Source: Alphaproteobacteria bacterium (GTDB lineage: Bacteria > Pseudomonadota > Alphaproteobacteria > GCA-2731375). Taken from it: a DNA stretch of 61,501 nucleotides. Every line of letters begins with the position of its first letter. Position 1 is the stretch's first letter. Positions 40,249-55,569 of the stretch are shown here, piece after piece. Both the position numbers and the translations under genes were made by a program. The notes below the pieces were generated by a model that worked only from the letters and a program-made list of their open reading frames with translations, was not told the DNA's origin and did not search any database. Where the stretch lies: contig JAJFGG010000131.1 in the NCBI GenBank assembly GCA_021776235.1, positions 1 to 61,501 on the forward strand, given 5' to 3'.

Positions 40249-42381
40249 TCAGAACCCGCTTTCCCGAATGAGCACGCCGGCAGCGAAGCGGAAAATCCGA
40301 CCGGCAGCGCTTCGGGCCTGGCCTTCCAGGTATACCGTGCCGCGGACGATGTGAGAGAGACGGGCGGCCTCGCCCGCGGGCCGCAGCGTCACGCGGTAGA
40401 TACTCTCTTCGGGAACTAACGTATCTTTTCTGGGGCCCTGGCGAACGGCGAGCGGGCCGCCGAAATCAGAGGCGAGGTAGGGCTTTGGCAGGGCCTGGGT
40501 GGCGGAGGTATCGATATCGGTGACCGTTAGCAAAATGGGCGGCAGCACCTCGCCTTCGGCATGAAAGCGGGCGTCGGCGCCCACCATGACACGGGCCAGG
40601 TCGTCCTCTTTCAGATACGCCGTGACCCTGAGTTCGCCTTCCGCTACCACCCGCGCCACGCGGTGGCCGGCAGGCAGCCAGCGTCCTGGATGCAGGTTAG
40701 GATCCCGGTCAGCTATCCGCCCTGCCAGCGGCGCGGCCAATGTCAATCGGCGCCGCTCTTCTTCAATACCCGCAAGCAGGGTCATAGTTTCCACAAGTTG
40801 CTGGGCAAGAACCCCAACCTGACCGCTGAGTTTTGCCTGGCTTTCCGAACGGGCGATTTGCCACTTCAGGATATCAATCTGGTGCCGGGTCTTAGCTTCC
40901 CGGAAATCCAATTCAGGCCATTCCAGGCGGAGCAGTGGATCGCCCCGGGGGACGCGGTTTCCCTCTTGCATGGTAAGCGCCGTGATGCGTCCCGGCGTTG
41001 GGGTGAAAACATCGACCGCTTCACCGGCATGCAGAAAGGCCGGTACCGTGATGCGTCCGTGCCATGGAACAAACAGGCCGGCGACGGCAACCGTCAGGGC
41101 TGCGAAGGTAAGACAGACATTCAGATTGAGCCCCCCCTTTTCCCGGCGGTCCCACCATTCCTTCATCTCCAGGACGATGGGCCGGAGAATGAACCACCAG
41201 ACTTCAACGGCCATCAGGAATATGCCCAGCACCTTGAAGAACAGGAAATAGACCAATACCGCAATACCGAGGAACAGAAAGAAACGGTAGACCCAGGTTC
41301 CGTAGGCATAGGCCAGCATGGTCCGGTAATACGGCACGGGGGCCGGTTCGGGGCAGGGTTCCTGAAACTTGAACAATAGCTCGCGAAGGCGCCAGCGCGC
41401 GAGGCGGAAGGCGCGGGACTGCAAGTTCGGGATACCGAGAAAATCGGCCAGAAGATAATAGCCATCAAACCGCATGAACGGGTTCAGGTTGACGGCCAGG
41501 GTCATTATCCACGTTGTGGTTGCCAGCAGAAATACCGCGCTTTTCAGCGGGCCATCAGGCAGAAAGCTCCAGGCCAGAGTGGCCCCGGCCGCAAGCCCCA
41601 ATTCAGCCGCCATGCCGGCCAGGCCGATCGCCAGGAACGGCCGCCGTCTGGTCAGCCGCCAGGCGTCGGAGGTATCCGTATATAGGACGGGGAACATCAC
41701 CAGAAACGCCACCCCGATGCTGGGCACCCGTAGCCCGTAACGCTTGGCGGTATAGGCGTGACCCAGTTCGTGGATGATCTTTGCGATGACCAGCGCCGCC
41801 CCGTAATAGGCAGTCCCTTCCCAGGTAAAGAAATAAAGGAATGTATGGGTGAACTGGTCCCATTGGCGGACCACGAGGTAAAGCCCGAGGAGCGCGGCCA
41901 ACAGCACCAGCACCCGAAACCATGCCGTGAACATGAACGAGATGTAGGGCAGGGTGCTTTCCAGGAAGCGGTCCGGGCGGACCACCGGGATGCGGACGAA
42001 AAGGTAGTGGTGGAGCAGCCAAACCAGGGGATGTTGACGTGCCTTCTTGGCCTTTTCGGACAGGCTTGCGCCCTGACGCGGACCGCTTTGCGTGGAAAGC
42101 TCGTTGGCTTCGAGAAAGCGCCCGACGGCCTCGACCTCGTCGGGCGTGACGGTCAACGGTGTCTCGGCCCGGATCCGTTCGGCCACCACTTTCGCCTGCG
42201 CCGGCGCCCAGCGGGCCAGCACCTCGAACTCGTGCCAGCCAATGCGGAAGAACCGGTCCCTGACCGGGTCGTGGATCGTCCAGGTTGCCGAGCCGTCCGC
42301 CGCCCGTGGCCCTGCTATGAGCTTCAGATCGTTCCGCAAGGGTGGCAGGATCTGCGCCGTAGCGTCCGCTGGCATGCTCAT
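40249..42381 (-). CDS. M50 (site-2) metalloprotease fused to a HlyD-like adaptor
   Basis: A 710-residue polytopic inner-membrane protein. The N-terminal part (about 1-100) resembles the PqqD-like domain of peptide zinc-metalloprotease proteins. Several membrane segments follow from about 145 to 435, with the zinc motif HELGH (His204, Glu205, His208) and the second metal motif NPFMRFDGY (Asn300, Asp306), both intact. After residue 440 comes a HlyD-like part: lipoyl-like half-motifs (ITALTMQEGNRVPRGDPLLRL; LAAPLAGRIADRDPNLHPG), a helical hairpin and a beta-barrel-type end. It overlaps the GAF-HlyD gene by 4 bp and is last in the operon. It probably cleaves a membrane-inserted substrate, perhaps the giant protein encoded upstream, and contributes to its export; that role is inference. 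Confidence 0.88.
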   Translation of the reverse strand: MSMPADATAQILPPLRNDLKLIAGPRAADGSATWTIHDPVRDRFFRIGWHEFEVLARWAPAQAKVVAERIRAETPLTVTPDEVEAVGRFLEANELSTQSGPRQGASLSEKAKKARQHPLVWLLHHYLFVRIPVVRPDRFLESTLPYISFMFTAWFRVLVLLAALLGLYLVVRQWDQFTHTFLYFFTWEGTAYYGAALVIAKIIHELGHAYTAKRYGLRVPSIGVAFLVMFPVLYTDTSDAWRLTRRRPFLAIGLAGMAAELGLAAGATLAWSFLPDGPLKSAVFLLATTTWIMTLAVNLNPFMRFDGYYLLADFLGIPNLQSRAFRLARWRLRELLFKFQEPCPEPAPVPYYRTMLAYAYGTWVYRFFLFLGIAVLVYFLFFKVLGIFLMAVEVWWFILRPIVLEMKEWWDRREKGGLNLNVCLTFAALTVAVAGLFVPWHGRITVPAFLHAGEAVDVFTPTPGRITALTMQEGNRVPRGDPLLRLEWPELDFREAKTRHQIDILKWQIARSESQAKLSGQVGVLAQQLVETMTLLAGIEEERRRLTLAAPLAGRIADRDPNLHPGRWLPAGHRVARVVAEGELRVTAYLKEDDLARVMVGADARFHAEGEVLPPILLTVTDIDTSATQALPKPYLASDFGGPLAVRQGPRKDTLVPEESIYRVTLRPAGEAARLSHIVRGTVYLEGQARSAAGRIFRFAAGVLIRESGF

Positions 42382-43742
42382 AATCCCGACATGCGGCGGG
42401 CGGACGAAACAGGTTTGCGCATCAGGAACCAGAAAAGAGTTACCTTCTCACCGAACACTTTTGCCGTACCTCTATGCCCGATACGGGGAAGCGGCCCCGC
42501 GTCGCGAAACCGGGCCGTTAGCCGGTAGGAGAGAATGCCTTGTTCCGTCGGCTCCGGTTCGTAACTCATTGTCTGAAGAATCGCTTCCCTGGGCGAAAGC
42601 GGGGCAACGTTCAAGAAGGCCTGGACCCGGGCACCCTTGGAAAACAGCAGGAGATCGTCGGCGGGAAGCTGCATCTGCAGTTCGACTTCTCCCGGATCGG
42701 CGATGATGAGAATGCGTTCGCCCGTGCTGGCGGGCCGGCCAATCCAATCGTTGGCGTCCTTGAAAACGGCGATGCCCGACCGGTCGGCACGGACTTCGAG
42801 CCGGGCAAGCTGTTCTTCCGTGAAGACCAGTTCGGCCCGCCGTTCGGCGACCCGTGCCTTTAACACGGCGACCTGGCTCTTGGCCTCTGGGTCGAGAAAC
42901 GCGCGTTTTTCTATGCGGTCCAACTCGGCCTGGGCTACCAGCAGGGTCTGATGGGCCACATTCCGCCGGTTTCTGAGATTTGTGTCGTCGACCCGGAACA
43001 GCACCTGTTGTTTCACGACTTTCTGGTTGGGACGAACCAGGAATTCCTTGATGACGCCGTCCAGGGGAGCACTAATGACGCTTGGGTTCACTGGTATCAC
43101 CTCGGCCGGCGCCAGTGCCGATTGCCTTACGGGGAGGAACAGGGCGCCCCCAGCCAGGGCCAGCAGCAGAACCGCTGCCCCTTTTGACAGCACCGCGCGC
43201 TGGAGCCGCTGGCCCGCCGACGGGCCCTTCGGTTCCAGCGCGTGCCAGGCATGGGCATAGGCATCGGTCAGTCGCCGCAAAAGGGTTTTCTCGGCGTCGC
43301 TCCAGGGTGATGGGCGGGCGATTGCCAGGATGCCAAGCCGCCGTCCGGTCGGGGCGACGAGGGGAATTGCCAGCAAATGTTCCGGCAGCCATTCGGCCCA
43401 GCCATCGGCGACGCCGCTTTTCACATCCGCCGCCGTCAGTTCATGGGCGCTTTCGTTGTGCGGCGCGGCAGACAACTCGTCCCCCAGTGTGCTGAGCCAG
43501 AGGGCCATGGGGGCCGTCTTCTCGAACTGGGTGGTGCCGGAAATGTTGGCGAGGCGGCTCCGGCTTCGGCCCTGTTGCCGCCACAGAAAGGCATGGCGGT
43601 AGGGAACCAGACGATACGTCTCGTTGACCATAACGAAACCCAGGTCTACGGGCTGCTCAGCCTGCCGCGCCTCTTGTTCCAGCTGCACGAGTGTGCTGAG
43701 TCCTTCGATCTGACGCTCGAGTGCGCCGTCCGGGGCGTTCAT
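42378..43742 (-). CDS. HlyD-family adaptor with N-terminal GAF-like domain
   Basis: A 454-residue membrane fusion protein. Residues 1-175 have a GAF-like pattern (VQLEQEARQAEQPVDLGFVMVNETYRLVPYRHAFLW; LLAIPLVAPTGRRLGILAIARP) and should be cytoplasmic. One membrane segment (about 186-204) is followed by periplasmic HlyD elements: ISAPLDGVIKEFLVRPNQKV, a coiled-coil hairpin about 255-320 and a beta-barrel domain with LPADDLLLFSKGARVQAFLN. It lies 1 bp after the short periplasmic adaptor gene and overlaps the M50-HlyD gene by 4 bp. A cytosolic sensor or dimerisation domain on an export adaptor is unusual and could gate export. Confidence 0.87.
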   Translation of the reverse strand: MNAPDGALERQIEGLSTLVQLEQEARQAEQPVDLGFVMVNETYRLVPYRHAFLWRQQGRSRSRLANISGTTQFEKTAPMALWLSTLGDELSAAPHNESAHELTAADVKSGVADGWAEWLPEHLLAIPLVAPTGRRLGILAIARPSPWSDAEKTLLRRLTDAYAHAWHALEPKGPSAGQRLQRAVLSKGAAVLLLALAGGALFLPVRQSALAPAEVIPVNPSVISAPLDGVIKEFLVRPNQKVVKQQVLFRVDDTNLRNRRNVAHQTLLVAQAELDRIEKRAFLDPEAKSQVAVLKARVAERRAELVFTEEQLARLEVRADRSGIAVFKDANDWIGRPASTGERILIIADPGEVELQMQLPADDLLLFSKGARVQAFLNVAPLSPREAILQTMSYEPEPTEQGILSYRLTARFRDAGPLPRIGHRGTAKVFGEKVTLFWFLMRKPVSSARRMSGL

Positions 43743-43743
43743 T

Positions 43744-44532
43744 TCAGTTGCCGATACTGAATTGCGCCGTGCCGCTCATGCCGGGCAGCAGATCCGGTTG
43801 CCGGCCGTCTACATCGGCATAGACCTGAAGTGTCTGGCTGGCCGGGTCGACGTTGGCGCCGGTCGCGCGGACCCGCGCCTGGTAAACCTTTTGGGTTTCG
43901 TCAATCCGAACGATGACGGGCGAGCCCGGGCCAAGTTTTACGGCGACGCTGGCCGGCGCCAGAATCTCCAGCCGCATTGCCGTGTCGTCCAGGATCTCAA
44001 GAACCGGCTGGCCGGGCGTGACGTGTTCAAAGGCCTGTGCCTCTAGGGCGACGACGCGGCCGTCAAAGGGAGCGGCAATGGTGCAGCCGGTGACTTCGGC
44101 CTTCATGATGGCTACGTCCGCCTCGGCCTTCTGTATATTGGCCTTGGCCAGCGCCAGCTCCAATTCCCGGACCGCGTTCAGACGTTGCAGCTTCTGCTGC
44201 GCCTCCAGGGTCTTTCCCGCCTGGAACAGTTCGGCATCGGCCTTCTTCAGGTTGGCACGCTGCACGGCGCAATCAAATGTAACCAGGGTGGCGCCCTTTT
44301 TGAACCTGGCCCCTTCCGTCTTGTGGATGGAGATGATGCGGGTTGATAGCCGGCTTGCAAGTGTCGTTTCCGCCCAAGGTTTGACCAACGCGCGCGCGGC
44401 GACTTCCGAGACAACAGGGGGGGCCGTCGAAAGGGTTTGCGCCGGCGCGAATGTGGGAGCCACGGTCGACCCCAACAGACAAAACGCACCTAGGAAAGAT
44501 AGGGCGTTCGCTTTTCGGTAATGCTTTTCCAC
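43744..44532 (-). CDS. short periplasmic adaptor (HlyD/RND membrane fusion protein type)
   Basis: A 262-residue protein with an N-terminal signal sequence (ALSFLGAFCLLGSTVAPTFAPAQ) and no other membrane segment. The lipoyl halves (LSTRIISIHKTEGARFKKGATLVTFD; GCTIAAPFDGRVVALEAQAFEHVTPGQPV) flank a helical hairpin (about 90-150), then a beta-barrel and a membrane-proximal end. It is shorter than typical RND adaptors (about 350-400 residues). It should bridge the inner-membrane adaptors to the TolC-like protein. It is 28 bp downstream of the TolC-like gene and 1 bp upstream of the GAF-HlyD gene. Confidence 0.88.
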   Translation of the reverse strand: MEKHYRKANALSFLGAFCLLGSTVAPTFAPAQTLSTAPPVVSEVAARALVKPWAETTLASRLSTRIISIHKTEGARFKKGATLVTFDCAVQRANLKKADAELFQAGKTLEAQQKLQRLNAVRELELALAKANIQKAEADVAIMKAEVTGCTIAAPFDGRVVALEAQAFEHVTPGQPVLEILDDTAMRLEILAPASVAVKLGPGSPVIVRIDETQKVYQARVRATGANVDPASQTLQVYADVDGRQPDLLPGMSGTAQFSIGN

Positions 44533-44560: not shown

Positions 44561-46333
44561 TCATGGCGCGGCCTCGGCTTTTTCTGCATGGAGTTCCTCG
44601 GCGTTGGCCTCTCTCTGCAGGAAGGACCAGAAACCCTCGCCCTCGTTCTCTTCAGTGCCCGCCGTTGTCCCGCTCACGTCGTTCGGTGCCACCATGTCAA
44701 GTCCGGCGAGCGTAAAGGGGGACACGTCTTCCGTCTGCGATTTGCCGCCCTGCGCGCCACCCCGCGCCAATGTCGCAGCCGCTGGTTCATTGTTGCCGGC
44801 TGTTTCATTGGCGCCATCTAGGGCCGCCAAAGGGAGATCCCCACTCTCGATGGCTTCCAGGTAGGTCTCGATGGCTTTTGAGGCCGTGTTGATATCTGCG
44901 GCGGCGATCATATCCGGCAGTGGGTGCACCCCGGACGCGTTGAGGACGCGCCCGAAGGCTTCCTGAAGGTCCGCGTAGGCGAGGGCCCGCTCGACCGAAG
45001 AGAGCACCGCTTCGGCCTCCGCCTCCGCCAGGGACAGTTCGTCGCCTGTGCCCGACTGACGCTGCGCGCTGACCTGATCCAGCAACCTTTCATTCACATC
45101 CGCCAACTGTTTGACAATCACAAAATCCGCCTTCGACAGGTTGTAACCCTGATGGGCCACGTTGACCTGGGTCAACACCGCCATGTTGATCGCCATGCGG
45201 CGGGTGTCTGCCAGGGCCTGGCGGGTCTCCGCCACGTCAATCCGGGCCGGGCCGGCCACCAGATCGACAAGGTTATAGGTGACGAGGGATCCCACCTGCA
45301 GCCAATCATTGTGCAACATGAAGCTGTTCGAATCATAACGGGCCGCTGCGTTGAGTTCGATCCCCGGCAGCATGCGGAGGATTTCCTTCTTCACATCCGC
45401 GACGGCAATGCGTTTCTGGTAGCGTTCCTGGTTGATTTCCGGGCGGGTCAGAAAAGCGTTCTGTTCCAGGCCAGGAAGCCGCTTCGCCAAATCCGGCAGC
45501 CCTGGCTCGGTGTTGGAGGGGACGGCAAGGGTGTAACGGATCCCCGGACGCAGGTTCATGAGGGCGGAAAGTTCCGTTCGCACGATCTGCAGCCGACGCG
45601 AAGCCAGCTGCAGATCCTGGCGGGACTCCAGCAGGCGGCGCTGCAGCGACAGCGCCTCGACCGGCTGTTGCAGGCCGCTCTGTTCGATCTTCTCGGCCTC
45701 GGCCAGGGCCCCGTCGATAACTTTCAGGACCCGGTCAATGCGGGTGATAAAACGTTCCGCCGCGACGGCCCGCCAATAGGCCGAACGCACATCCTGGATA
45801 ATGTTCTGGATCGCCTTGCGCCGCCGTTCCTCCTGCACCAGGACCTGATCGGCAGACTGCTTGGCGGCGTAATAGCTGACGCCGAAATCCAGAATGTTCC
45901 AGGTCGCGTCGATGCTGGCAACCTTGGATGTGCGGTCGCTGGACTGCGACGTTTCCAGTGACTGCTGCTGCGTCGCCACGGACTTGCTGCTGGACGCACT
46001 GATCTTGTCCCGATTTGTTATCCCAGCCTCCGTGTTGACGTCCGGCAGGAAGGAATACTTGCTCAGATCATGATCACCGCGGGCCACCGCCTGTTCCATC
46101 AAGGCGACCTTGTGGTCAAGGTTGTATTTGAGGGCCCGGGCGATTGCCTCGTAAAGGGTAACGTTCCGGGAAACCGGTTCCTGATCCTGGAACAAGCGGC
46201 CAAGATCGGCCTTGGCCAATTGCGTCCGTTCCGCCAGGGTCAGAGGCTCCGGCGCCACTGTACAGGCAGCAGCCAGCAGCGTAGCCGCCAACAAGGCGGA
46301 CCGATTTATCGAAACCGTCATCATTCGCTTCAT
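44561..46333 (-). CDS. TolC-family outer-membrane lipoprotein
   Basis: A 590-residue outer-membrane efflux protein, started at the ATG at 46333. That ATG opens a lipoprotein signal (NRSALLAATLLAAAC, likely acylated Cys), preferred over the in-frame ATG at 46408. Two TolC-type repeats of long helices and strand pairs are visible (TLYEAIARALKYNLDHKVALMEQ; TYNLVDLVAGPARIDVAETRQAL). A C-terminal extension of about 120 residues after the second helical repeat is low in complexity (ANETAGNNEPAAATLARGG...ELHAEKAEAAP) and unusual. It follows the giant gene by 116 bp and starts a tightly spaced set with three adaptors. It is likely the outer-membrane exit channel. Confidence 0.9.
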   Translation of the reverse strand: MKRMMTVSINRSALLAATLLAAACTVAPEPLTLAERTQLAKADLGRLFQDQEPVSRNVTLYEAIARALKYNLDHKVALMEQAVARGDHDLSKYSFLPDVNTEAGITNRDKISASSSKSVATQQQSLETSQSSDRTSKVASIDATWNILDFGVSYYAAKQSADQVLVQEERRRKAIQNIIQDVRSAYWRAVAAERFITRIDRVLKVIDGALAEAEKIEQSGLQQPVEALSLQRRLLESRQDLQLASRRLQIVRTELSALMNLRPGIRYTLAVPSNTEPGLPDLAKRLPGLEQNAFLTRPEINQERYQKRIAVADVKKEILRMLPGIELNAAARYDSNSFMLHNDWLQVGSLVTYNLVDLVAGPARIDVAETRQALADTRRMAINMAVLTQVNVAHQGYNLSKADFVIVKQLADVNERLLDQVSAQRQSGTGDELSLAEAEAEAVLSSVERALAYADLQEAFGRVLNASGVHPLPDMIAAADINTASKAIETYLEAIESGDLPLAALDGANETAGNNEPAAATLARGGAQGGKSQTEDVSPFTLAGLDMVAPNDVSGTTAGTEENEGEGFWSFLQREANAEELHAEKAEAAP

Positions 46334-46417
46334 GCGAGAACCAACCCCACGCGCCGGTGATTTAGCTTGCTTGCTTTCAAGTTTGATCGCTACCACGTTC
46401 CGGTACATACCAAAGAT

Positions 46418-46449: not shown

Positions 46450-49400
46450 TCATATGAATGCCGCCAGTAAATTCGCTTTTTCCGCGTCAAAGCGTCCAGC
46501 CGCAAACGCCAGCTGCGCGTCAAGGCCTTCAGCGCCCTGGAAACCCGAACCGCCCTGCAGCGCAGGCTCCCCGCTGCCAGGCCAGTAGGATTGCTGCCCC
46601 GCTGCCGGCGCGGCGTCTGGATCGCCGGTCGGCGGCGCTGCCGGTGTACCGGTCGCCGGTGCCTCGGGCGCCGGCGTTCCATCGCCAGGGGCGCCGGGCG
46701 TGGCGGGGGTTTGCCCTTCCGTTTCGGGCGCCGGGGCGGCGCCGTCGGCGGGCGCCGCATCAGATGGCGCCGGGTCCGCGCCGTCCGGTGCCTGGCCTTG
46801 GGTCCCATCGCCGGTTGTCTCGTCTTCGCTGCCGCCCGCTTCCGGCGCGATATCGCCCAAGGCATTGGCCGTGCCGGACGTCGCGCCGGCGCCAAAACCG
46901 CTTCCGCCACCGGATTGCGAGCCGGCGTTGTTGGCTTCACCCTTCGCATCGAGCACGGCATCCGAGACGGAATTGACGTTCTGTACGGTTTGGCCTTGGC
47001 CGCCGCCGCCGCCAGCCGCGTTCTGGGCCGAGGTTATGCCGTCACTGACAGAGCCGGTATTCGCGGCCGGCGGCTGGAAAGTGTTGCTGCTGGGAGCAGC
47101 AGCCTGATCCGCTAACGGCGGGGCGTCGCCTGTAACCGCACTGGGGGCCGGTGCCTCGCCCTCGGCGGCGCTCGGGTTACCACTGTCACCGCTATCCCCC
47201 TGATCTTGATTCAGGCCCAACGGGGCGGCGATAGACACCGTAACAACCTGCGTTACCGACAGGACGCCGCCGGAGCCTTGGCTGCCGGCATTGCCGTCGT
47301 TCAGGGTGATGTCGAGGCTGAGCGTGCCCGTCGCCGCACCGTCGTCGTTGAGATAGCCCAAGGACTGGAAAAAACTATCCACCAGCGCCGAGGTCGCGTT
47401 GCCGTTGAAGGTAACGGTGATGCTGCCGGACGCCGCGCTTCCCGCCGTAACGGTCCCGATATCGGTGGCAGAGACCGTGATGGTGTCGCCATTGTCAAAC
47501 GCCGTGGATCCGTTGGCCAGGCCAAACCGGTCATCCGCATCCGCGCCACCGGTTCGGGCCAGCGTCACGCTCGCACCGTTATAGTTGCCGGCCGCGGCAT
47601 CAAGCGAATCCAGTTCCTCATCGGCGGCGAGCGCCGCCGTTCCGGCATCCAGCGCGACAAAGCTTGCAGAACCAGCCAGGAACGAAATGTTACCCGCATC
47701 GGGTCCCATGTCGCTCAGGGTCGGGGCATCGTTCGCCGCCGTCAGCGTCACTGTAGAGGCAACTGACAGGGCTGAATTCACATTGTCGTCGGAACCGCCG
47801 TTCAGGCCGCTGTCGGTCAACGAGGTGATCGTCACCACCCGGTTGCTGGTGGCCGGGGCCTGGCTGTTGTTCTGATAGCTCATGGCGTCGAGCAGCGTGT
47901 TCATCCCGGCGTTGTCGACGCCGATGCTCGTCACCGTCACCGTCGCCGTGCCGCCCGCCAGGCTGACTGAAAACGAAGCCGAGTTGCCCGACGTCGTGCC
48001 GCTGTTGCCATCGTTCAGCGCGATCGCCGTGCCGTCGAAGTTGACAACCTCGTCCGCGCCCGCGCTGGCGCCGTCAGCGACGTTGCTGACCGTGAAAGTC
48101 AGCGCCGCCAGGGTCTGGCCGCTCTCGATGGTCGAGGCCGCGGCACCGCTGAACAGAGAAGCCGCCTCGCCGCCTTCGGTGAAGGTCGGGTTCGAACCCG
48201 TCGCCGTCAGCGTCGGCTCATCATTCACGTCAGTGATGCTGACCGTCGCCGTGCCCGTCGTTGCGCCGGCGCCGTCATCCGCTATGACGTCAAGCGTGAC
48301 ACTCGCGGGCGGTGTGTCGGATGAATTGCTGTAGGTGATATTTTGCAGCACATCCTGCACCAGCGCCGTGGTCGGCGCCGTGTTGGCGTTGGTGAAGGTA
48401 ATGACAATCTGCCCGCCGGTCGCCGTATTGACGGTCGCGATGGTCTGCCCGCCGGCCTGAATGTTCGCGCCCACAACGGTAATGCCGCCGCCGGTCTGCA
48501 CCGCCAGGGTGTCGCTGGCCTCGGCCCCGCCGCTGCGCCTGACCGTAAACGTCGCGCCGTTCCAATCCCCCGCCGCGCCGTTCGACGCGTCCAGTTCCAC
48601 GTCCGCGACGGTCGCGTTGCCATCGACGGTCACCGCGGCCCCACCCTCGGTAAAGGTCGCACCACCATCGAGGCCCGTGAATACCGGCAGATTGTTGATG
48701 GTGACCGTGACCGAACCGGTGCTGGTCTGGCTGACCGTGCCCGCTGCCTCCAGGGTCGAAAGCGCCACCGCCGTCGCCGTCGTCTTGCCGAACACTACGT
48801 AAGACGCACCTGCATTCCCATTATTTGGGTCGGCATTCTTTGCCCCGACAATCAGGTCGGCAAGGCCGTCGCCATTGACGTCGCCGGCCGCACTGACGGA
48901 AAAACCTGAATAGTCGCCGGCACCAACGCCGTCGATGACAAAGCCGCCGCCACTGCCCGCCTCGATGGTCGAAAGCTCCACCGCCGTCGCCGTTGTCTTG
49001 CCGAACACCACGTAGGACGCACCTGCACTCGAGTCGCCGGCTGGGTCGGCTGCAAATGCCCCGACGATCAGGTCGGCCAGGCCGTCGCCGTTGACGTCGC
49101 CGGCGCCACTGACGGAACGGCCCGAAAGGTCGTTGGCATCGACGCCGTTGATGACGAAGCCGCCGCCGCTGCCCGCCTCGATGGCCGAAAGCTCTACCGC
49201 CGCCGCCGTCGCCTTGCCGAACACCACGTAGGACGCACCTGCATACGTGTTGCCGTTGGGGTCGGCATCACGTGCCCCGACGATCAGGTCGGCCAGGCCG
49301 TCGCCGTTGACGTCGCCGGCGCTGCTCACGGAACGGCCCGAAAAGTCGCTGGCATCCACGCCGTTGATGACGAAGCCAGGCGTGATGGCCGTCGGATCGG

Positions 49401-52400
49401 TGAGGGTGTATTCGATCTGCGCGCTGGTTTCCGCGCCGGCGGTGCTGGAATAGGTGATCTTCTGCAGCGCCGAGTTGACCAGCGCCGTGGTCGCCGAGCT
49501 GTTGAAGCTCAACAGCAAAGTGCCGCCGGAATTGGTCGTCACCGTGCCGATGGTGGTGCTGTCCACCACCAGGTTGCCGCCCGCCGTCAGGGCGCCCAAG
49601 CTGCCCGAGTTGGCAAAGGCGTCATTGCTGTTGGCGCCGCCGCTCCGTTGCAACCGCAGGGTCGCCCCGTCGAAATTGCCGTTGCCTGAATTGAGCAGCC
49701 CCAGCTCCTCGTCCGTGATGGTGCCATTGGCATCCAGCACCACCGCCGCCCCGCCCCGTTGAAAGGTGGGCGTCCCGTCCAGGTTGGTGAAAACGCCGGC
49801 ATCATTGCGCGCCGCCGGCGTCACCGTCACCGTCGCCGCCGTCGTGGTGCCGCCGTCGCCATCCGCCACCGTGAACGACACCGTCCGGGCGCTGGTGTCG
49901 ATGGCACTGGTCGTGGTGGTATTCCGGTAGGTGATCTGCTGCATCAGGGCGCTCACCCGCGCCGCCGTGGCGCCCGAATTGAAGGTCACCACCAGGTTCT
50001 CGCCGGCGTCCACCTGATCGCCGCCGACCGCCGTAATGGCGCCGATAGAGGTGCCGCCGACGCTGACCACGCTGGCATTGTTCAAACCGTTGGACAAGGT
50101 CACCCGGGTCGGGTTGGTGGTGTTGCTATCGGTCTTGATGCCAAGCTGATCCTGCGCTGCCGTGCCCCCCGCAATCGAGACCGTCAGATTGCCGCTGTTG
50201 AAGTCGGCGCTGTCGGTGTCGGCAACCTGGGCCGCGTTTTCCTGGTCGATGATGATCGCCGTGCCGTCCTCGGCGAACGCCACTTTGTCGCCATTCAGGT
50301 TCGACGTGGTCGGTACAGAATTGACCGCCGCCACCGTCGCTGTCACATCCGCATTGCTGGAGGTGCCGCCATCGCCGTCATTCACGGTCACCCGGATGGT
50401 CCGCGCCCCGGTGGTCGGGGCGACCGTGTCCGTGTTCTGGTAAGTGATGGCCCGCACCAGGGTCTGCACGTTGGCCGCCGTCGAATTGCCGTTCAGGCTG
50501 ACTACAAGGTCATTGCCGGCCGAAATGGCGTTTGTCAGGGTGCCCACCACGGTGCCGCCGACCGTGACGTTCGAGCCCGCCGTGGTCCCGGCCAGGGTGA
50601 CCGTGCCGGAATCAAAGCTCAACACATCCTCCGCCGCGTCCTCGCCTGACGTGATCGTCACGGTCAGGTTGCCGCCGCTGAGATTGGCGCTGTCCACATC
50701 CGCCACGGTGGCATTGCCGCCCTGGTCGATCACGGTCGCCCCGTCGCCTTCCGTGAAGGTGAAACTGTCGCCGTTCAGGTCCGTCGTCGTCGGCGCATCG
50801 TTGACCGCCGCCACCGTCGCCGTCGAGGCCACGGCCAGGGTTGAATTGACATTGTCGTTGGAACCGGTGTTGGAGCCGCTGTCGGTCAGCGAGGTGATGG
50901 TCACCACACGGTTGTTGGTGCTCGGGTCCTGGCTGTTGTTCTGATAGCTCATGGCGTCCAGCAGGGTGTTCATCCCGGCGTCGTTGACGCCGATGCTGGT
51001 CAGCGTCACCGTCGCCGTGCCACTCGACAGACTGACCGAGAAGGAAGCCGAATTGCCCGACGTGGTGCCGCTGTTGCTGTTGTTCAGGGCGATCGCCGTG
51101 CCGTCGAAGTTGATGACCTCGTCCGCCCCCGCCGTCGAGCCGTCGGCAACGTTGCTGACCGTAAACGTCATGGCCGTCAGGGTCTGGCCGCTCTCGACCG
51201 TCGAGGCCGCGGAAGAGCTGAACAGAGAGGCCGCACCGCCGCCTTCCGTGAAGGTCGGGTTCGAGCCCGTCGCCGTCAGCGTCGGCTCGTCATTCAACGC
51301 CGCAACGGTGGCCGTCGAGGCCACCGACAGGGCCGAATTCACATTGTCGTTGGAACCGGCGTTGGAGCCGCTGTCGGTCAGCGAGGTGATGGTCACCACA
51401 CGGTTGTTGGTGCTCGGATCCTGACTGTTGTTCTGATAGCTCATGGCGTCCAGCAGGGTGTTCATCCCGGCGTCGTTGACGCCGATGCTGGTCAGCGTCA
51501 CCGTCGCCGTGCCGCCCGCCAGGCTGACCGAAAACGAAGCCGAATTGCCCGAAGTGGTGCCGCTGTTGCTGTTGTTCAGGGCGATCGCCGTGCCGTCGAA
51601 GTTGATGACCTCGTCCGCCCCCGCCGTGGAGCCGTCGGCAACGTTGCTGACCGTGAAGGTCATGGCCGTCAGGGTCTGCCCGCTCTCGACCGTCGAGGCC
51701 GCGGAAGAGCTGAACAGAGAGGCCGCACCGCCGCCCTCCGTGAAGGTCGGGTTCGAACCCGTCGCCGTCAGCGTCGGCTCGTCATTCAACGCCGCCACCG
51801 TGGCCGTCACATCGGCGTTGGCAGAGGTGCCGCCGTCGCCGTCGTTCACCGTCACCCGGATGGTCCGCGCCCCGGTGGTCGGATTGTCCGTGTCCGTGTT
51901 CTGGTAGGTGATGGCCCGCACGAGGGTCTGCACGCTGGCCGCCGTCGAACTGACGTTCAGGCTGACCACAAGGTCATTGCCCGCCGAAATCGCGTTGGTC
52001 AGGGTGCCCACCACCACGCCGCCGACCGTGACATTCGAGCCCGCCGTGGTCCCGGCCAGGGTGACCGTGCCAGAATCAAAGCTCAGCACGTCCTCCGCCG
52101 CGACCTCCCCCGACGTGATCGTCACGGTCAGGTTGCCGCCGCTGAAGTCGCCACCGTCGGCGTCCGCCACCGTGGCATTGCCGCCCTGGTCGATCGCCGT
52201 CGCCCCGTCACCTTCCGTAAATGTGAAGCTGTCGCCGTTCAGGTTTGTTGTGGTGGGCGCGCTGTTGGTCGCAAGGGTGAAATTGTTGTTTACCGTGGCG
52301 CCGACATTCAGTGTGTTGGCGGTTGAGGAGCCGTCGCCGCCGGCGCTGGCGCCGCTTTTGTTGATGCCGTCCGTGCCGCCGCCGCCGGCATTCGCCGTGG

Positions 52401-54276
52401 CGCCCGAGCCGAAGGTCAGGCTGCCGTTGTAATTGAAGGACGAGCCGCTGCCATTGTAAATGCCGCCGATGCCCCTACCGCCGGCGCCGGAGGCCTGGCC
52501 GCCGCTGAAACCGCCGCCGCCGCCGCCGCCGCCGCCGGCATTCAGGGTCATGGAGGTATTGTTGATGCTCAGGGTGCCGCTGTTGAAAATGCCGCCCGCA
52601 GCCAGGCCGCCGGCGCCTCCGGTTCCGGTGTTGACAGTATAGCCGCCGCCGCCGCCGCCGATCACATTGCCGCCGTTGATCACCGCCGTGCCGCCGCCGC
52701 CGCCGCCCGAGGCCGTGCCGTCATTGCCCCCGGCGCCACCTGCAGTGCTGCCGCCCTTGCCGGCATAGTTAACGGCATTAGCAATATTACTGTAACCGCC
52801 CCTGCCGCCGGTACCGGACCCGCCGCTGGTAGGCGCATTGTTGTTGTTGCCGCTGGCGCCGCCGGCGCCGCCGCCGCTGCCGCCAAAGCCGCCGCCGCCG
52901 CCGCCGCCATAGCCCCTGTACGCGACAAAGGTGGCGGCGCCGCCGCCGCCGCCGCCGCTGGCGTGGTTGTTGGTGATCACGCTTTGGTTGATGATCAGGA
53001 AGCCGGAGTTGCGAATGGCGCCACCCTCGCCGGCGCCGCCGGCGCTGCCTGTGGCGCCCGAACTGCCAGCGCCACCGGCGCCGAAGACCAGGCCGTTCTG
53101 AAGTCTGACGCCAAACAGCTCCACTTCACTGCCGTTGCTACCGCCTGTGACGTTGAATACCCGGCTGTTGTCGCCGCCGCTGATGGTGATGTCCTGGGCA
53201 GCGGCGAAGGCATTGTCGTTGTTGATGTCGCCGTCAATGGTGAGTTGCTTGTCAAGGGTGAGCTGCCCCTGAGTCAGCGTAATGGTATTGCCGGCCAGGG
53301 CCCCGGCGAAGGTGATGGTGTCACCGGCGCTGGCCGCGGCGATGGCCTCGCGCAGGCTGGTGCCACCCGCCCCGGTGTCGTTGTTGACGTCAACGGTGAT
53401 GGTGGCGAGGCTGTGGCCATAGCCCGACAGGGCCGCGCTGGTCAGTACGCTGTCGGCTTCGACGCTGCCGGTACTGATTTCCAGTTCGGCATCGCCGCCG
53501 AGCGCCGTCGAGGCCGTGCGGTCGTCGGAAGCGGCGACGTCGGCGCCGGTCAGCTGGGCATACAGGTCAATGAAGGCCTTGCCGCGGTCGCTTTCCGCCA
53601 GGTTGCAACCATAGAACAATGTATCGCCCGTCTCAGCCAAGGCCGCACCGATGGCGCCAAGCTGGCCGGCAAAGTCCGCCAGGTTGTCATTGGTCAAGCG
53701 GCTGTCGCCCAGGTAGAGCTCGCCGTCGTTGCCCTCTGCGATAATATGGATGGCGGCAACGTCCTGCATGCCCTTGAGCGCCGCGGCGATCTGGCCCAGG
53801 CCGTCCGATCCGGCATCCAGGGCGACCACCTGCAGGTTGTCGTCCAGCCCCCGCAGCAGCACCTCCGGGTCCTGCACCCGGTGATCAACGAAGACAATCT
53901 CGCGCTGGGTGGGGGTATCGATGACCAGCAGTTCATCCGCCGCGTCGTCCTGATCGTTGCGCTCGGCCGGCGGGACGAATTCTTTCGCGGCTTCGGCGAG
54001 GGCGTCGGCCTCCGTTTCCGCCTGTTTGGCGTCTTCGGCGGCCTTGGCCTCGGCGGCGCCGGTGTCCTCGGCCGCGGCAACCGCCTCCAGGGCGGTCACG
54101 GCCGCCGCGCCATCCAGCATGATCCGTGGTTCCAGCGCCAGCATCAACGCCGTGTACGAGATTCTTGATGCGGGCCGCGGCAAGGCCGATCCGGACTTAG
54201 AGGACTGCGGCAAGGCAGGCGAACGCATGCCGCCGCCTTTTGCCGAAAGTCCGTCGAGGAAGGTCATGATGCGCAC
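46450..54276 (-). CDS. giant surface/adhesin-like protein (LEPR motif, DUF4347, cadherin-like and FG-GAP repeats)
   Basis: A 2,608-residue protein (GTG start; ATG three codons later possible). Order: LEPRIMLDGA motif (48-57); acidic Ala/Glu helix (60-100); DUF4347-like domain (about 125-285, with FYGCNLAESDRGKAF); beta-helix-like segment beginning TSLREAIAAASAGDTITF (about 306-395); Gly-rich block (about 395-640); then about 100-164-residue beta repeats of cadherin/VCBS type (TFTEGGGAASLF; TVNDGDGGTS), with three FG-GAP-like units (SAGDVNGDGLADLIVGA) inserted. A Pro/Ala/Gly-rich tail of about 220 residues and a short helical end (LAFAAGRFDAEKANLLAAFI) close it. No standard signal peptide or RTX nonapeptides are seen. 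It is probably exported by the downstream TolC/adaptor genes; adhesion is inferred from architecture. Confidence 0.88.
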   Translation of the reverse strand: MRIMTFLDGLSAKGGGMRSPALPQSSKSGSALPRPASRISYTALMLALEPRIMLDGAAAVTALEAVAAAEDTGAAEAKAAEDAKQAETEADALAEAAKEFVPPAERNDQDDAADELLVIDTPTQREIVFVDHRVQDPEVLLRGLDDNLQVVALDAGSDGLGQIAAALKGMQDVAAIHIIAEGNDGELYLGDSRLTNDNLADFAGQLGAIGAALAETGDTLFYGCNLAESDRGKAFIDLYAQLTGADVAASDDRTASTALGGDAELEISTGSVEADSVLTSAALSGYGHSLATITVDVNNDTGAGGTSLREAIAAASAGDTITFAGALAGNTITLTQGQLTLDKQLTIDGDINNDNAFAAAQDITISGGDNSRVFNVTGGSNGSEVELFGVRLQNGLVFGAGGAGSSGATGSAGGAGEGGAIRNSGFLIINQSVITNNHASGGGGGGAATFVAYRGYGGGGGGGFGGSGGGAGGASGNNNNAPTSGGSGTGGRGGYSNIANAVNYAGKGGSTAGGAGGNDGTASGGGGGGTAVINGGNVIGGGGGGYTVNTGTGGAGGLAAGGIFNSGTLSINNTSMTLNAGGGGGGGGGFSGGQASGAGGRGIGGIYNGSGSSFNYNGSLTFGSGATANAGGGGTDGINKSGASAGGDGSSTANTLNVGATVNNNFTLATNSAPTTTNLNGDSFTFTEGDGATAIDQGGNATVADADGGDFSGGNLTVTITSGEVAAEDVLSFDSGTVTLAGTTAGSNVTVGGVVVGTLTNAISAGNDLVVSLNVSSTAASVQTLVRAITYQNTDTDNPTTGARTIRVTVNDGDGGTSANADVTATVAALNDEPTLTATGSNPTFTEGGGAASLFSSSAASTVESGQTLTAMTFTVSNVADGSTAGADEVINFDGTAIALNNSNSGTTSGNSASFSVSLAGGTATVTLTSIGVNDAGMNTLLDAMSYQNNSQDPSTNNRVVTITSLTDSGSNAGSNDNVNSALSVASTATVAALNDEPTLTATGSNPTFTEGGGAASLFSSSAASTVESGQTLTAMTFTVSNVADGSTAGADEVINFDGTAIALNNSNSGTTSGNSASFSVSLSSGTATVTLTSIGVNDAGMNTLLDAMSYQNNSQDPSTNNRVVTITSLTDSGSNTGSNDNVNSTLAVASTATVAAVNDAPTTTDLNGDSFTFTEGDGATVIDQGGNATVADVDSANLSGGNLTVTITSGEDAAEDVLSFDSGTVTLAGTTAGSNVTVGGTVVGTLTNAISAGNDLVVSLNGNSTAANVQTLVRAITYQNTDTVAPTTGARTIRVTVNDGDGGTSSNADVTATVAAVNSVPTTSNLNGDKVAFAEDGTAIIIDQENAAQVADTDSADFNSGNLTVSIAGGTAAQDQLGIKTDSNTTNPTRVTLSNGLNNASVVSVGGTSIGAITAVGGDQVDAGENLVVTFNSGATAARVSALMQQITYRNTTTTSAIDTSARTVSFTVADGDGGTTTAATVTVTPAARNDAGVFTNLDGTPTFQRGGAAVVLDANGTITDEELGLLNSGNGNFDGATLRLQRSGGANSNDAFANSGSLGALTAGGNLVVDSTTIGTVTTNSGGTLLLSFNSSATTALVNSALQKITYSSTAGAETSAQIEYTLTDPTAITPGFVINGVDASDFSGRSVSSAGDVNGDGLADLIVGARDADPNGNTYAGASYVVFGKATAAAVELSAIEAGSGGGFVINGVDANDLSGRSVSGAGDVNGDGLADLIVGAFAADPAGDSSAGASYVVFGKTTATAVELSTIEAGSGGGFVIDGVGAGDYSGFSVSAAGDVNGDGLADLIVGAKNADPNNGNAGASYVVFGKTTATAVALSTLEAAGTVSQTSTGSVTVTINNLPVFTGLDGGATFTEGGAAVTVDGNATVADVELDASNGAAGDWNGATFTVRRSGGAEASDTLAVQTGGGITVVGANIQAGGQTIATVNTATGGQIVITFTNANTAPTTALVQDVLQNITYSNSSDTPPASVTLDVIADDGAGATTGTATVSITDVNDEPTLTATGSNPTFTEGGEAASLFSGAAASTIESGQTLAALTFTVSNVADGASAGADEVVNFDGTAIALNDGNSGTTSGNSASFSVSLAGGTATVTVTSIGVDNAGMNTLLDAMSYQNNSQAPATSNRVVTITSLTDSGLNGGSDDNVNSALSVASTVTLTAANDAPTLSDMGPDAGNISFLAGSASFVALDAGTAALAADEELDSLDAAAGNYNGASVTLARTGGADADDRFGLANGSTAFDNGDTITVSATDIGTVTAGSAASGSITVTFNGNATSALVDSFFQSLGYLNDDGAATGTLSLDITLNDGNAGSQGSGGVLSVTQVVTVSIAAPLGLNQDQGDSGDSGNPSAAEGEAPAPSAVTGDAPPLADQAAAPSSNTFQPPAANTGSVSDGITSAQNAAGGGGGQGQTVQNVNSVSDAVLDAKGEANNAGSQSGGGSGFGAGATSGTANALGDIAPEAGGSEDETTGDGTQGQAPDGADPAPSDAAPADGAAPAPETEGQTPATPGAPGDGTPAPEAPATGTPAAPPTGDPDAAPAAGQQSYWPGSGEPALQGGSGFQGAEGLDAQLAFAAGRFDAEKANLLAAFI
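47735..48226 (-). repeat. diverged copy of the 164-residue adhesin repeat
   Basis: This third copy of the unit found in tandem at 50811-51794 has the same length but more substitutions (for example SGAAASTIESGQTLAALTF against SSSAASTVESGQTLTAMTF). It is separated from the tandem pair by other modules. Boundaries are approximate. Confidence 0.65.
48760..49385 (-). repeat. three FG-GAP-type repeats
   Basis: Three consecutive units of about 210 bp encode FVINGVDANDLSGRSVSGAG, DVNGDGLADLIVGA and GASYVVFGKT-type segments. The Ca-binding DVNGDGLAD loop is repeated in each, as in integrin-alpha-type beta-propeller blades. Three blades are too few for a closed seven-bladed propeller. Confidence 0.75.
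50811..51794 (-). repeat. two nearly identical tandem 492-bp units in the adhesin gene
   Basis: The segment GTCGGCTCGTCATTCAAC recurs at 51281 and 51773, a period of 492 bp (164 codons). The two encoded units differ at only a few residues (SVSLAGGTA versus SVSLSSGTA; NAGSNDNVNSALSV versus NTGSNDNVNSTLAV). Such similarity implies recent duplication or gene conversion and makes the array prone to length change. Confidence 0.8.
52511..52537. repeat. (CCG)9 trinucleotide run in the Gly-rich block
   Basis: Nine uninterrupted CCG triplets encode Gly on the minus strand. Several shorter CCG runs lie within 52300-53000. Length changes would stay in frame and alter the Gly-rich region only. Confidence 0.8.
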
Positions 54277-54648: not shown

Positions 54649-55569
54649 CTACTCGTCTTTTTCGGGTGCCGGTAGTATGGGAGACGGCGCACCGCCAGGC
54701 TTGGGCTCAACCGTGACCTCGACACTGCGCGGCCGTTTTGCATCTTTTGCGGCAATGACAGAGGCGTTCGTCGCCTTCCGATTGTTCCAAAAGGACATGC
54801 TGGCGTACTGCTCGAACAGGTCGGGTGGCAAAATCGTGCGCCGCGGCTTGAATTGCACCTTGCCTTGCACCCGGTGCAATCCGGGTGTCCCCAAACGGTC
54901 GTCATAGGCGTCCGCCTCGTAGGCGACATTGTCAAAATCGTGGCTAAAGGGCGCCTCGCCCAGAAACTCATAAATCAGCTCCAGCGTGCGTTTGGGCTTT
55001 TGCGTCAAAAGGTCATAGTCAACCAGAAGGAGTGATTTCGAATGCTCACCGTAATAGGCCTCCTTCAGGGCGGACCAGGCGTAGCCAACCACGCGGCCGC
55101 GCTGGCCCAGGCTGTCGACCCGGGAATATACGGTGTTGCGTTCGGCCTCGTCGTTGAACAACTGCGAGACCTCAAGTGGATTGCGGCGGACCGCGCGCTC
55201 GAAACTATCCATGATCCAGCCCACGTTCCGCACGCAGCAAATCAGCTTGGCGTCGGGAAAGAACTCGGCCAGGGCCCAAAGGCGGGCGCACCACATGCGG
55301 TTGGTGTCGAAGATCACCTCGCGATCAACGATGCCATAATAACTGTCGAACAGGCCCTCCAGGATCCGGCGTTTCTGCTCCTCTTCGATGAATACGTAGA
55401 ATTCGTTGTTCACGCTCATGGCGTTGAGCAAGGTCGTGAACAAGCCGCCCACGGGACTCGTCATCCCCGCATGAAACCTGGGATTTTGGCTCAGGATGGA
55501 TGCGATTAGTGTCGAGCCGGCGCGCGGCAGCCCGGAGATGAAGTGTATCGGTCGATCCAAGATGTTCAC
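54649..55569 (-). CDS. sulfotransferase family protein
   Basis: A 306-residue cytosolic enzyme of the PAPS-dependent sulfotransferase fold. The 5'-phosphosulfate loop is FISGLPRAGSTLIASIL near residues 10-26. The 3'-phosphate site matches CVRNVGWIMDSFERAVRRNP (Arg and Ser positions). YDLLTQKPKRTLELIYEFLGE is the usual C-terminal helix region. The final about 25 residues are Pro/Glu-rich. It is the next gene upstream of the giant-protein gene on the same strand, 372 bp away. The acceptor could be a sugar or a tyrosine of an exported protein; sequence alone does not tell. Confidence 0.88.
   Translation of the reverse strand: MNILDRPIHFISGLPRAGSTLIASILSQNPRFHAGMTSPVGGLFTTLLNAMSVNNEFYVFIEEEQKRRILEGLFDSYYGIVDREVIFDTNRMWCARLWALAEFFPDAKLICCVRNVGWIMDSFERAVRRNPLEVSQLFNDEAERNTVYSRVDSLGQRGRVVGYAWSALKEAYYGEHSKSLLLVDYDLLTQKPKRTLELIYEFLGEAPFSHDFDNVAYEADAYDDRLGTPGLHRVQGKVQFKPRRTILPPDLFEQYASMSFWNNRKATNASVIAAKDAKRPRSVEVTVEPKPGGAPSPILPAPEKDE

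Follow-up and report, generated by a model that had tools for sequence, protein, structure and literature searches.

An M50 protease fused to a HlyD-type adaptor as a putative component of a TolC-dependent exporter for LEPR-tagged giant proteins

What is the role of an intramembrane protease with a built-in export adaptor in an operon that begins with a giant repeat protein and encodes no ATP-binding cassette (ABC) transporter? This question is raised by the window, a stretch of 61,501 nucleotides from an Alphaproteobacteria bacterium (contig JAJFGG010000131.1 of assembly GCA_021776235.1). The last gene of the operon encodes M50-HlyD, a fusion of an M50 protease and a HlyD-type adaptor, and this protein is probably the inner-membrane component of a dedicated ABC-less, TolC-dependent exporter and processor for giant surface proteins with an N-terminal LEPR tag. 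In the proposed mechanism, a cytosolic domain resembling the recognition elements (RREs) of ribosomally synthesized and post-translationally modified peptide (RiPP) pathways would bind the tag in the way that an RRE binds its RiPP leader. The M50 core, which would neighbour the RRE in the membrane, would cut in or next to the tag, and the adaptor domain, two partner adaptors and TolC would form the conduit. We infer the cleavage, the order of events and the energy source; the tag may act first, as a leader, or last, as an anchor that is cut for release. A cut by the M50 core in or near the tag is slightly favoured. The RRE domain, the ABC-less gene set, the C-terminal motifs of the giants and a SecA-like ATPase in a sister family go beyond an earlier note on this DNA, which had been made from the sequence. 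The M50-HlyD gene contains the following features.

40249..42381, minus strand: M50-HlyD fusion, 710 aa, RRE, M50 intramembrane protease and periplasmic adaptor (open reading frame, profiles, model)
42097..42360, minus strand: RRE/PqqD-like domain, about aa 8-95, three strands and three helices (model, fold matches)
41758..41772, minus strand: HELGH zinc motif, aa 204-208 (sequence, alignment)
41458..41484, minus strand: NPFMRFDGY, aa 300-308, with the third zinc ligand Asp306 (sequence, alignment)
40252..41067, minus strand: HlyD/MacA-type adaptor domain, aa 439-710, beyond the last predicted transmembrane (TM) segment at 420-438 (Pfam, model, fold search, hydropathy)

The M50 core has a complete zinc site on the same polypeptide as a MacA-like adaptor. 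The earlier note had placed HELGH at residues 204-208 and NPFMRFDGY with Asp306 in one protein with adaptor elements, and the positions, the alignment and the model all agree with it, to a degree that chance would hardly give. The residues K201, H204, E205, H208, N298, D306, G307 and Y308 show no variation across 80 aligned rows; the invariance of D306-Y308 is partly due to selection because FDGY was among the patterns of the scan from which 71 rows were taken, and HExxH was absent from those patterns. This alignment (A3) comprises 71 of 80 loci from genome_contigs and eight others, with nine long or near-duplicate loci, L007 and fragments left out. An HExxH motif and a distal NPxxxxDG in a core with several TM segments characterize the protein as an M50/site-2 protease, and an adaptor fold after a TM segment characterizes it as a HlyD/RND-type (resistance-nodulation-division) adaptor. 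Hydropathy gives seven TM segments, and the model likewise has seven long helices there, not all of which coincide with them; the number is odd, and therefore the N-terminus would lie inside and the adaptor outside.

Family profiles identify the adaptor most clearly. HlyD_3 was matched at aa 547-629 (52.7 bits; Pfam cut-off 22.2), while Biotin_lipoyl_2 (22.5 vs 29.8 bits) and Peptidase_M50 (PF02163; 23.5 vs 27.2 bits) stayed under their Pfam cut-offs. Among the NCBIfam families, the M50 part matched daptide_HExxH (NF041824) best, at aa 41-392 with an E value of 1e-44, but the 153.1 bits of this match do not reach the equivalog cut-off of 300, and M50-HlyD is not assigned to the daptide proteases. 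Prediction of the structure of M50-HlyD alone, a check put forward in the earlier note, gave a mean predicted local distance difference test score (pLDDT) of 87.8 (AlphaFold2, 80-row alignment) and recovered the adaptor fold. The C-terminal part resembles MacA, MexA and EmrA adaptors at Z scores of 14-17, with the MacA chain 9qgy_G as the top match (Z 17.0, 219 residues, root-mean-square deviation (rmsd) 4.3, model residues 441-688); the matches listed in this whole-model search cover the adaptor part, and the fold of the M50 core lay outside the comparison. Unlike in these adaptors, the helical hairpin of M50-HlyD is short in the model, with helices of just 24 and 29 residues (489-512 and 516-544), and no MacB-, MexB- or EmrB-like partner was found in its operon by Pfam and NCBIfam scans. 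No relative of M50-HlyD (query P0001) was found in the viral contigs scanned.

The N-terminal domain resembles domains that bind leader peptides. In a separate model of residues 8-122, the first 90 residues mostly have a pLDDT above 90, and three strands are followed by three helices, the arrangement of the RRE/PqqD-like fold. The closest fold is the lasso B1 protein with its leader (6jx3_B, Z 10.1, 82 residues, rmsd 2.9), followed by TbiB1 with leader (5v1v_A, Z 9.7; 5v1u_A, 9.6) and PqqD (5sxy, 8.7). The RREs of MccB, LynD and CteB match at Z of about 7, and the range for RREs is 6.8-10.1. Because its N-terminal domain best matches leader-binding RREs, M50-HlyD is read as RRE, M50 protease and adaptor in one chain, each part of which belongs to a known fold family. 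It differs from known RREs in sitting on a membrane protease and in that its leader binding is a prediction from the model; peptide binding is inferred from the fold.

Some results weigh against this assignment. Non-RiPP chains score near the RREs, including a methyltransferase (8hkr_B, Z 8.3), 7vzz_B (6.8) and 4bxf_A (6.5). Foldseek gave no RRE match at E <= 0.001; its best match had an E value of 0.02 and a probability of 1.00. By sequence, PqqD (PF05402) was matched in just 7 of 80 homologues at E <= 0.05, and no other family matched the domain in more than one of the 80. In 42 genome pairs, the RRE residues 31, 48 and 51 covary with position 3 of the tag (P or Q), and so does residue 447; the covariation averages of the domains are near-equal (1.18, 0.73 and 1.07 for RRE, M50 and adaptor, respectively) and represent few events. 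Strong claims from this covariation were dropped on account of residue 447 and the few underlying events. With these points included, it is still rather likely that the RRE domain reads the LEPR tag, which is carried by the giant protein as follows.

46450..54276, minus strand: giant protein, 2608 aa, with tag, DUF4347 and FG-GAP repeats, first gene of the operon (Pfam, NCBIfam)
54085..54135, minus strand: LEPR tag of the giant, LEPRIMLDGAAAVTALE, aa 48-64 (NF012209, profile A2, tag consensus)
53407..53898, minus strand: DUF4347 domain of the giant, aa 127-290 (PF14252, E 2e-49)

The LEPR-XLL family (NF012209) matches aa 45-65 of the giant with 18 bits against a cut-off of 17, and with 24.1 bits in the genome search. 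The motif LE[PA]R[hydrophobic][LM][FLY]D[GA]A is common to seventeen giants adjoining M50-HlyD cassettes, and 14 of them also have T at +13, a position that played no part in finding them. Since NF012209 alone was too weak to measure co-occurrence (20 of 289 alphaproteobacterial genomes over its cut-off, many with short frames), the profile A2 was built from 16 of these 17 tags, leaving out the LEAR tag of L099. The tag of the window giant, itself one of the 16 rows, matches A2 at an E value of 2e-14. The consensus of 102 distinct tags is LE[PQS]R-x-[ML]-F-D-[AG]-A-x3-T-A-x-[ED]; these are the A2 matches above 20 bits, and selection by the profile accounts for part of the invariance. Close relatives occur among the rows. 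L, E, R and D do not vary, and position 3 is P in 73 tags, Q in 14, S in 12, A in two and N in one. F occurs at +6 in 88, A at +9 in 100, T at +13 in 79 and E or D at +16 in 67.

The region from -16 to +26 of the tag lacks the hydrophobicity of a Sec signal or a TM segment. The maximum Kyte-Doolittle value over 15 residues is at least 1.8 in 1 of the 102 tags and in 48 of 66 N-termini of small adaptors, a comparison that is rough because the gene starts are uncertain. At the diverged loci L171 and L177, the neighbouring repeat proteins begin with MRKLEQRVVLDAA and MRKLEERVVLDAA, respectively, and therefore have no space for a signal peptide ahead of the tag. Most tags lie in open frames of more than 1000 aa, and the giants contain adhesin-like repeats. 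A second LEPR tag was seen far from the cassette in G028 (L154 / L190); its open frame spans just 213 aa and may come from a disrupted or short tagged protein.

The link between tag and M50-HlyD was measured by searching the same 672 genomes of three taxa with P0001 (E <= 1e-10) and with A2 (E <= 1e-5). In Alphaproteobacteria, 15 of 289 genomes have a P0001 match, 13 of them at E < 1e-100, and all nine tag genomes are among these 13. In Nitrospirota, 13 of 109 genomes have a match, 12 at E < 1e-100, and the tag occurs in exactly those 12. The gammaproteobacterial matches (41 of 274) belong mostly to a diverged sister family; the six genomes with a tag all have a P0001 match of at least 37% identity, that of G461 being an 88-residue fragment at a contig end. 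An M50-HlyD relative is present in all 27 tag genomes, compared with 69 of the 672 genomes overall. The hypergeometric p values, uncorrected for kinship, are 2e-14 for Alphaproteobacteria (against the 13), 8e-6 for Gammaproteobacteria (against all 41; 2e-9 with 12 close genomes chosen after inspection of the list) and 3e-16 for Nitrospirota (against the 12). The samples contain related genomes: G033, G162 and G260 belong to one genus, and G716 has the same tag as L049, an A2 row. From the other side, 48 of 50 genomes with M50-HlyD (50 of the 80 loci) hold a tag at E <= 1e-3, or 38 of 40 when the suppliers of A2 rows are excluded. Some tagged giants are separated from the cassette by more than 200 kb of one contig (G309, G305) or lie in the interior of other contigs (G647, G705, G327, G329, G302), and because of this distance the link is more than one of gene order. 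Two further examples of unlinked tags, G457 and G247, were dropped: with a giant or a cassette at the end of a contig, the two may be neighbours.

Several genomes do not fit this link. No tag was found in the M50-HlyD genomes G289 and G303 or in the plasmid loci L022 and L025; the plasmid loci L020 (LESR), L021, L023 and L024 have one. Four alphaproteobacterial genomes (G070, G091, G109 and G147) have M50-HlyD and no tag at E <= 1e-5. The M50-HlyD matches of G070 and G109 reach a contig edge, and G070 has a weak tag match (0.0017); the contig of G147 is 15.7 kb long and holds no giant, and a LEAR variant was spotted by eye just downstream in G091. Gammaproteobacterial genomes such as G438, G491, G531, G532, G573 and G576 have M50-HlyD with no strong tag; among such loci, L183, L185 and L186 are short contigs, and no cassette partner was recognised at L184 (G532). 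Conversely, G583, a genome that may be incomplete, has a DUF4347 giant with a tag-like LEKR sequence (E 4e-4; L178:12340-15945) and no M50-HlyD match. With these exceptions counted, M50-HlyD is very probably the dedicated partner of the tagged giants. The earlier note had singled out the LEPR region near the N-terminus of the giant as the candidate site of recognition or cleavage, and its standing as a signal to the partner gains from the co-occurrence in three taxa, the sharp motif and the RRE fold at the N-terminus of M50-HlyD.

The same counts bear on a RiPP-like maturation, in which the RRE and the M50 core would serve a peptide pathway and the giant would not be the substrate. The RRE fold and the daptide protease as best NCBIfam match are consistent with such a pathway. 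It is very improbable given the presence of an M50-HlyD relative in all 27 tag genomes and the great length of most tagged frames; no RiPP modifying enzyme was found among the nine open reading frames scanned around M50-HlyD. M50 proteases of RiPP pathways, such as the daptide HExxH protease, YydH/LiaK and EpeP, share the M50 core with M50-HlyD, which differs from them in its score below the daptide cut-off, its fused adaptor and a proposed substrate of thousands of residues. EpeP, an M50 protease, offers a precedent for the preferred reading, as one paper describes it as thought to both cleave and export EpeX (PMC10885120).

Between the giant and M50-HlyD, the window encodes the parts of the putative conduit.

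42378..43742, minus strand: second HlyD adaptor, 454 aa, with a 4-base overlap with the start of M50-HlyD (profiles)
43744..44532, minus strand: small periplasmic adaptor, 262 aa (TIGR01730, 111.5 bits vs cut-off 94.9)
44561..46408, minus strand: TolC-family outer membrane channel, 615 aa (PF02321 in two stretches, E 1e-31)

The genes are tightly packed in the order giant, TolC, small adaptor, second HlyD and M50-HlyD, and no ABC transporter was found in the window operon by Pfam and NCBIfam scans. Type I secretion systems consist of parts such as HlyB-HlyD-TolC and LapBCE, and their substrates have conserved C-terminal motifs. The window operon resembles them in its HlyD-type adaptor, its TolC and a giant repeat protein of a kind with conserved C-termini, and differs from them in a gene set with no ABC transporter, an adaptor fused to an M50 protease and an N-terminal tag.

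The five-gene set recurs in Proteobacteria, Nitrospira and E. coli plasmids, and also in Azospirillum and Kosakonia loci. A table of 87 loci was compiled from the window, six plasmid records and, out of at least 579 relatives in genome_contigs, the best 80, with flanks of up to 10-20 kb; many contigs are too short for the whole set. The second HlyD adjoins M50-HlyD at 83 loci, all four export genes were recognised somewhere in the locus at 61, and the order TolC-adaptor-HlyD-M50 is found at 51. A strong match to an ABC transporter of the type I secretion system (T1SS) kind, above 200 bits, occurs at 2 of the 87 loci (L025 and L076), and at L025 the TolC and the small adaptor were not recognised. 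With none in the window operon either, the pairing of ABC transporter and adaptor genes that marks a T1SS is not seen here. On plasmid pMSR-1 of Magnetospirillum (L022), a repeat protein of 492 aa replaces the giant. A fused protein at L004 was rejected, its long frame being an out-of-frame reading.

No ATPase is conserved in the gene set. One rival explanation is an ordinary T1SS whose ABC transporter acts in trans, with M50-HlyD merely processing the N-terminus. Such a supply in trans is possible in 22 of 73 cassette genomes, where a T1SS ABC transporter above the LssB cut-off is encoded elsewhere, a result that counts against an ABC-less exporter, and L025 and L076 carry one inside their flanks; the C-terminal motifs of the giants described below also suit this explanation. 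In 18 of the 73 genomes, the best T1SS ABC match does not go beyond an E value of 3.5e-121, a level within the range of ordinary ABC exporters; such exporters occur at E <= 1e-30 in all 73 cassette genomes and all 14 controls. This search covered one ABC family, and some of the genomes are drafts. Together with the two strong matches in 87 loci and an operon that itself supplies three adaptors and a TolC, these results make type I secretion in trans improbable. Independence from any ABC transporter is the better supported option and is judged likely, if not strongly so.

The sister family offers a candidate motor. Its M50-HlyD proteins, mostly 24-33% identical to P0001, are likewise accompanied by a HlyD protein and a small adaptor. 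A SecA-like gene, mostly of 650-700 aa, lies beside M50-HlyD at 20 of 30 diverged loci (6 of the first 11 and 14 of the 19 later ones) examined among the gammaproteobacterial and Nitrospirota matches, with G394, G432, G554, G571 and G633 left out. These loci are L172, L167-L169, L173, L174, L288-L292, L294, L295, L297-L299 and L302-L305. The gene at L172:10330-12285 matches SecA_DEAD (E 6e-68), P-loop_SecA and the preprotein cross-linking domain, and the P-loop and the DEAD box are present in all 20 SecA-like genes. The SecA-like ATPase, the diverged M50-HlyD and the other HlyD adaptors of the sister family may form a SecA-driven export system. The window family differs from its sister in this respect, and no such gene was found at the 87 close loci; in the genome of the window, a single SecA frame, 921 aa long, lies on a separate contig. 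The SecA-like gene next to M50-HlyD in the sister family suggests that Sec may drive exporters of this kind. The candidates in the window family are housekeeping Sec and the proton motive force.

The C-termini of the giants bear on the order of events. In the window giant, the region is as follows.

46453..46524, minus strand: C-terminal motif region of the giant, LDAQL..., last 24 aa (loose pattern only)

Giants adjoining cassettes often end with [FL][ST]xQ[LV], mostly 20-45 residues before the end. The loose pattern [FLVIM][STNADG]xQ[LVIM] was found in 33 of 48 such giants, compared with 168 of 2880 internal windows, a likeness to T1SS substrates that tells against an ABC-less exporter, and the stricter [FLV][ST]xQ[LVM] was found in 22 of 48, compared with 60 of 2880. 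These counts are descriptive because the pattern was drawn from the same proteins. The 48 giants are frames of more than 1000 aa upstream of M50-HlyD, part of which were checked for the tag. Among other tagged giants, the loose and the stricter patterns occur in 7 and 4 of 18 readable C-termini, respectively, some of the 18 being wrong frames, and two further C-termini read LHRQL or LHQQL. A second ending, PAWxxFDP, is found in four tagged giants away from the cassette (L319, L322, L324 and L326). As judged from these sequences, the giants likely have a C-terminal signal too, and export may therefore start at the C-terminus.

Such an order is assumed by the main alternative, which is modelled on LapA. 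Retained adhesins of the LapA type have an N-terminal module that is cut by a periplasmic protease under the control of LapD. Here, the giant would be exported C-terminus first and kept on the cell by the RRE, which would hold its tag at the membrane. A signal, for which the N-terminal region of the second HlyD adaptor may be the sensor, would then make the M50 core cut the tag and release the giant. The enrichment of the C-terminal pattern in cassette-adjacent giants and partly in other tagged giants, the second ending type and the adhesin-like repeats all accord with anchoring and release. The gene set does not contain the ABC transporter of a T1SS, and the putative sensor region is weakly GAF-like: in homologues of the second adaptor, a region of about 170 aa matches GAF in 2 of 12 and GAF_2 in 1 of 12 at E <= 0.05, and GAF was not matched in the protein of the window. 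GAF was consequently rejected as a firm annotation. A LapA-like anchor is unlikely on this balance, although it is the strongest rival.

The preferred reading of M50-HlyD as part of a dedicated exporter of tagged giants can be taken further. If true, it would give a TolC-dependent export route that works with no ABC transporter, a secretion class of its own. Such a class would combine an RRE-read leader on giant proteins, a protease in the place of the ABC, RND or MFS (major facilitator superfamily) pump and a Sec motor, either the housekeeping one or, in the sister family, a dedicated short SecA-like protein; this wider proposal is tentative. The reading would also provide a function for the LEPR-XLL domain and for a large set of giant DUF4347/cadherin-like proteins, and leader-peptide logic would extend beyond RiPPs to very large proteins. 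No description of the gene set, of this combination of parts or of a tripartite conduit with a protease as its pump was found in the open-licence PubMed Central literature by title and start of abstract.

Some neighbouring genes were also noted. A sulfotransferase-like gene (PF13469) is located at 54649-55569 on the same strand, upstream of the giant. Genes annotated as tail fiber lie near the cassette of Azospirillum (L021:4-1868) and directly behind that of Kosakonia (L024:20128-22235). M50-HlyD also spreads on plasmids: 74 plasmid records match it, and in 58 of these the match covers 80% or more of the query. The five-gene cassette of the E. coli plasmid NZ_CP081687.1 (L020) is bordered by insertion sequence transposase genes. 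In a single-gene search, its M50-HlyD gene was found at 99% identity or more in 24 of 5426 E. coli genomes, and 21 of the 25 places were plasmid-borne.

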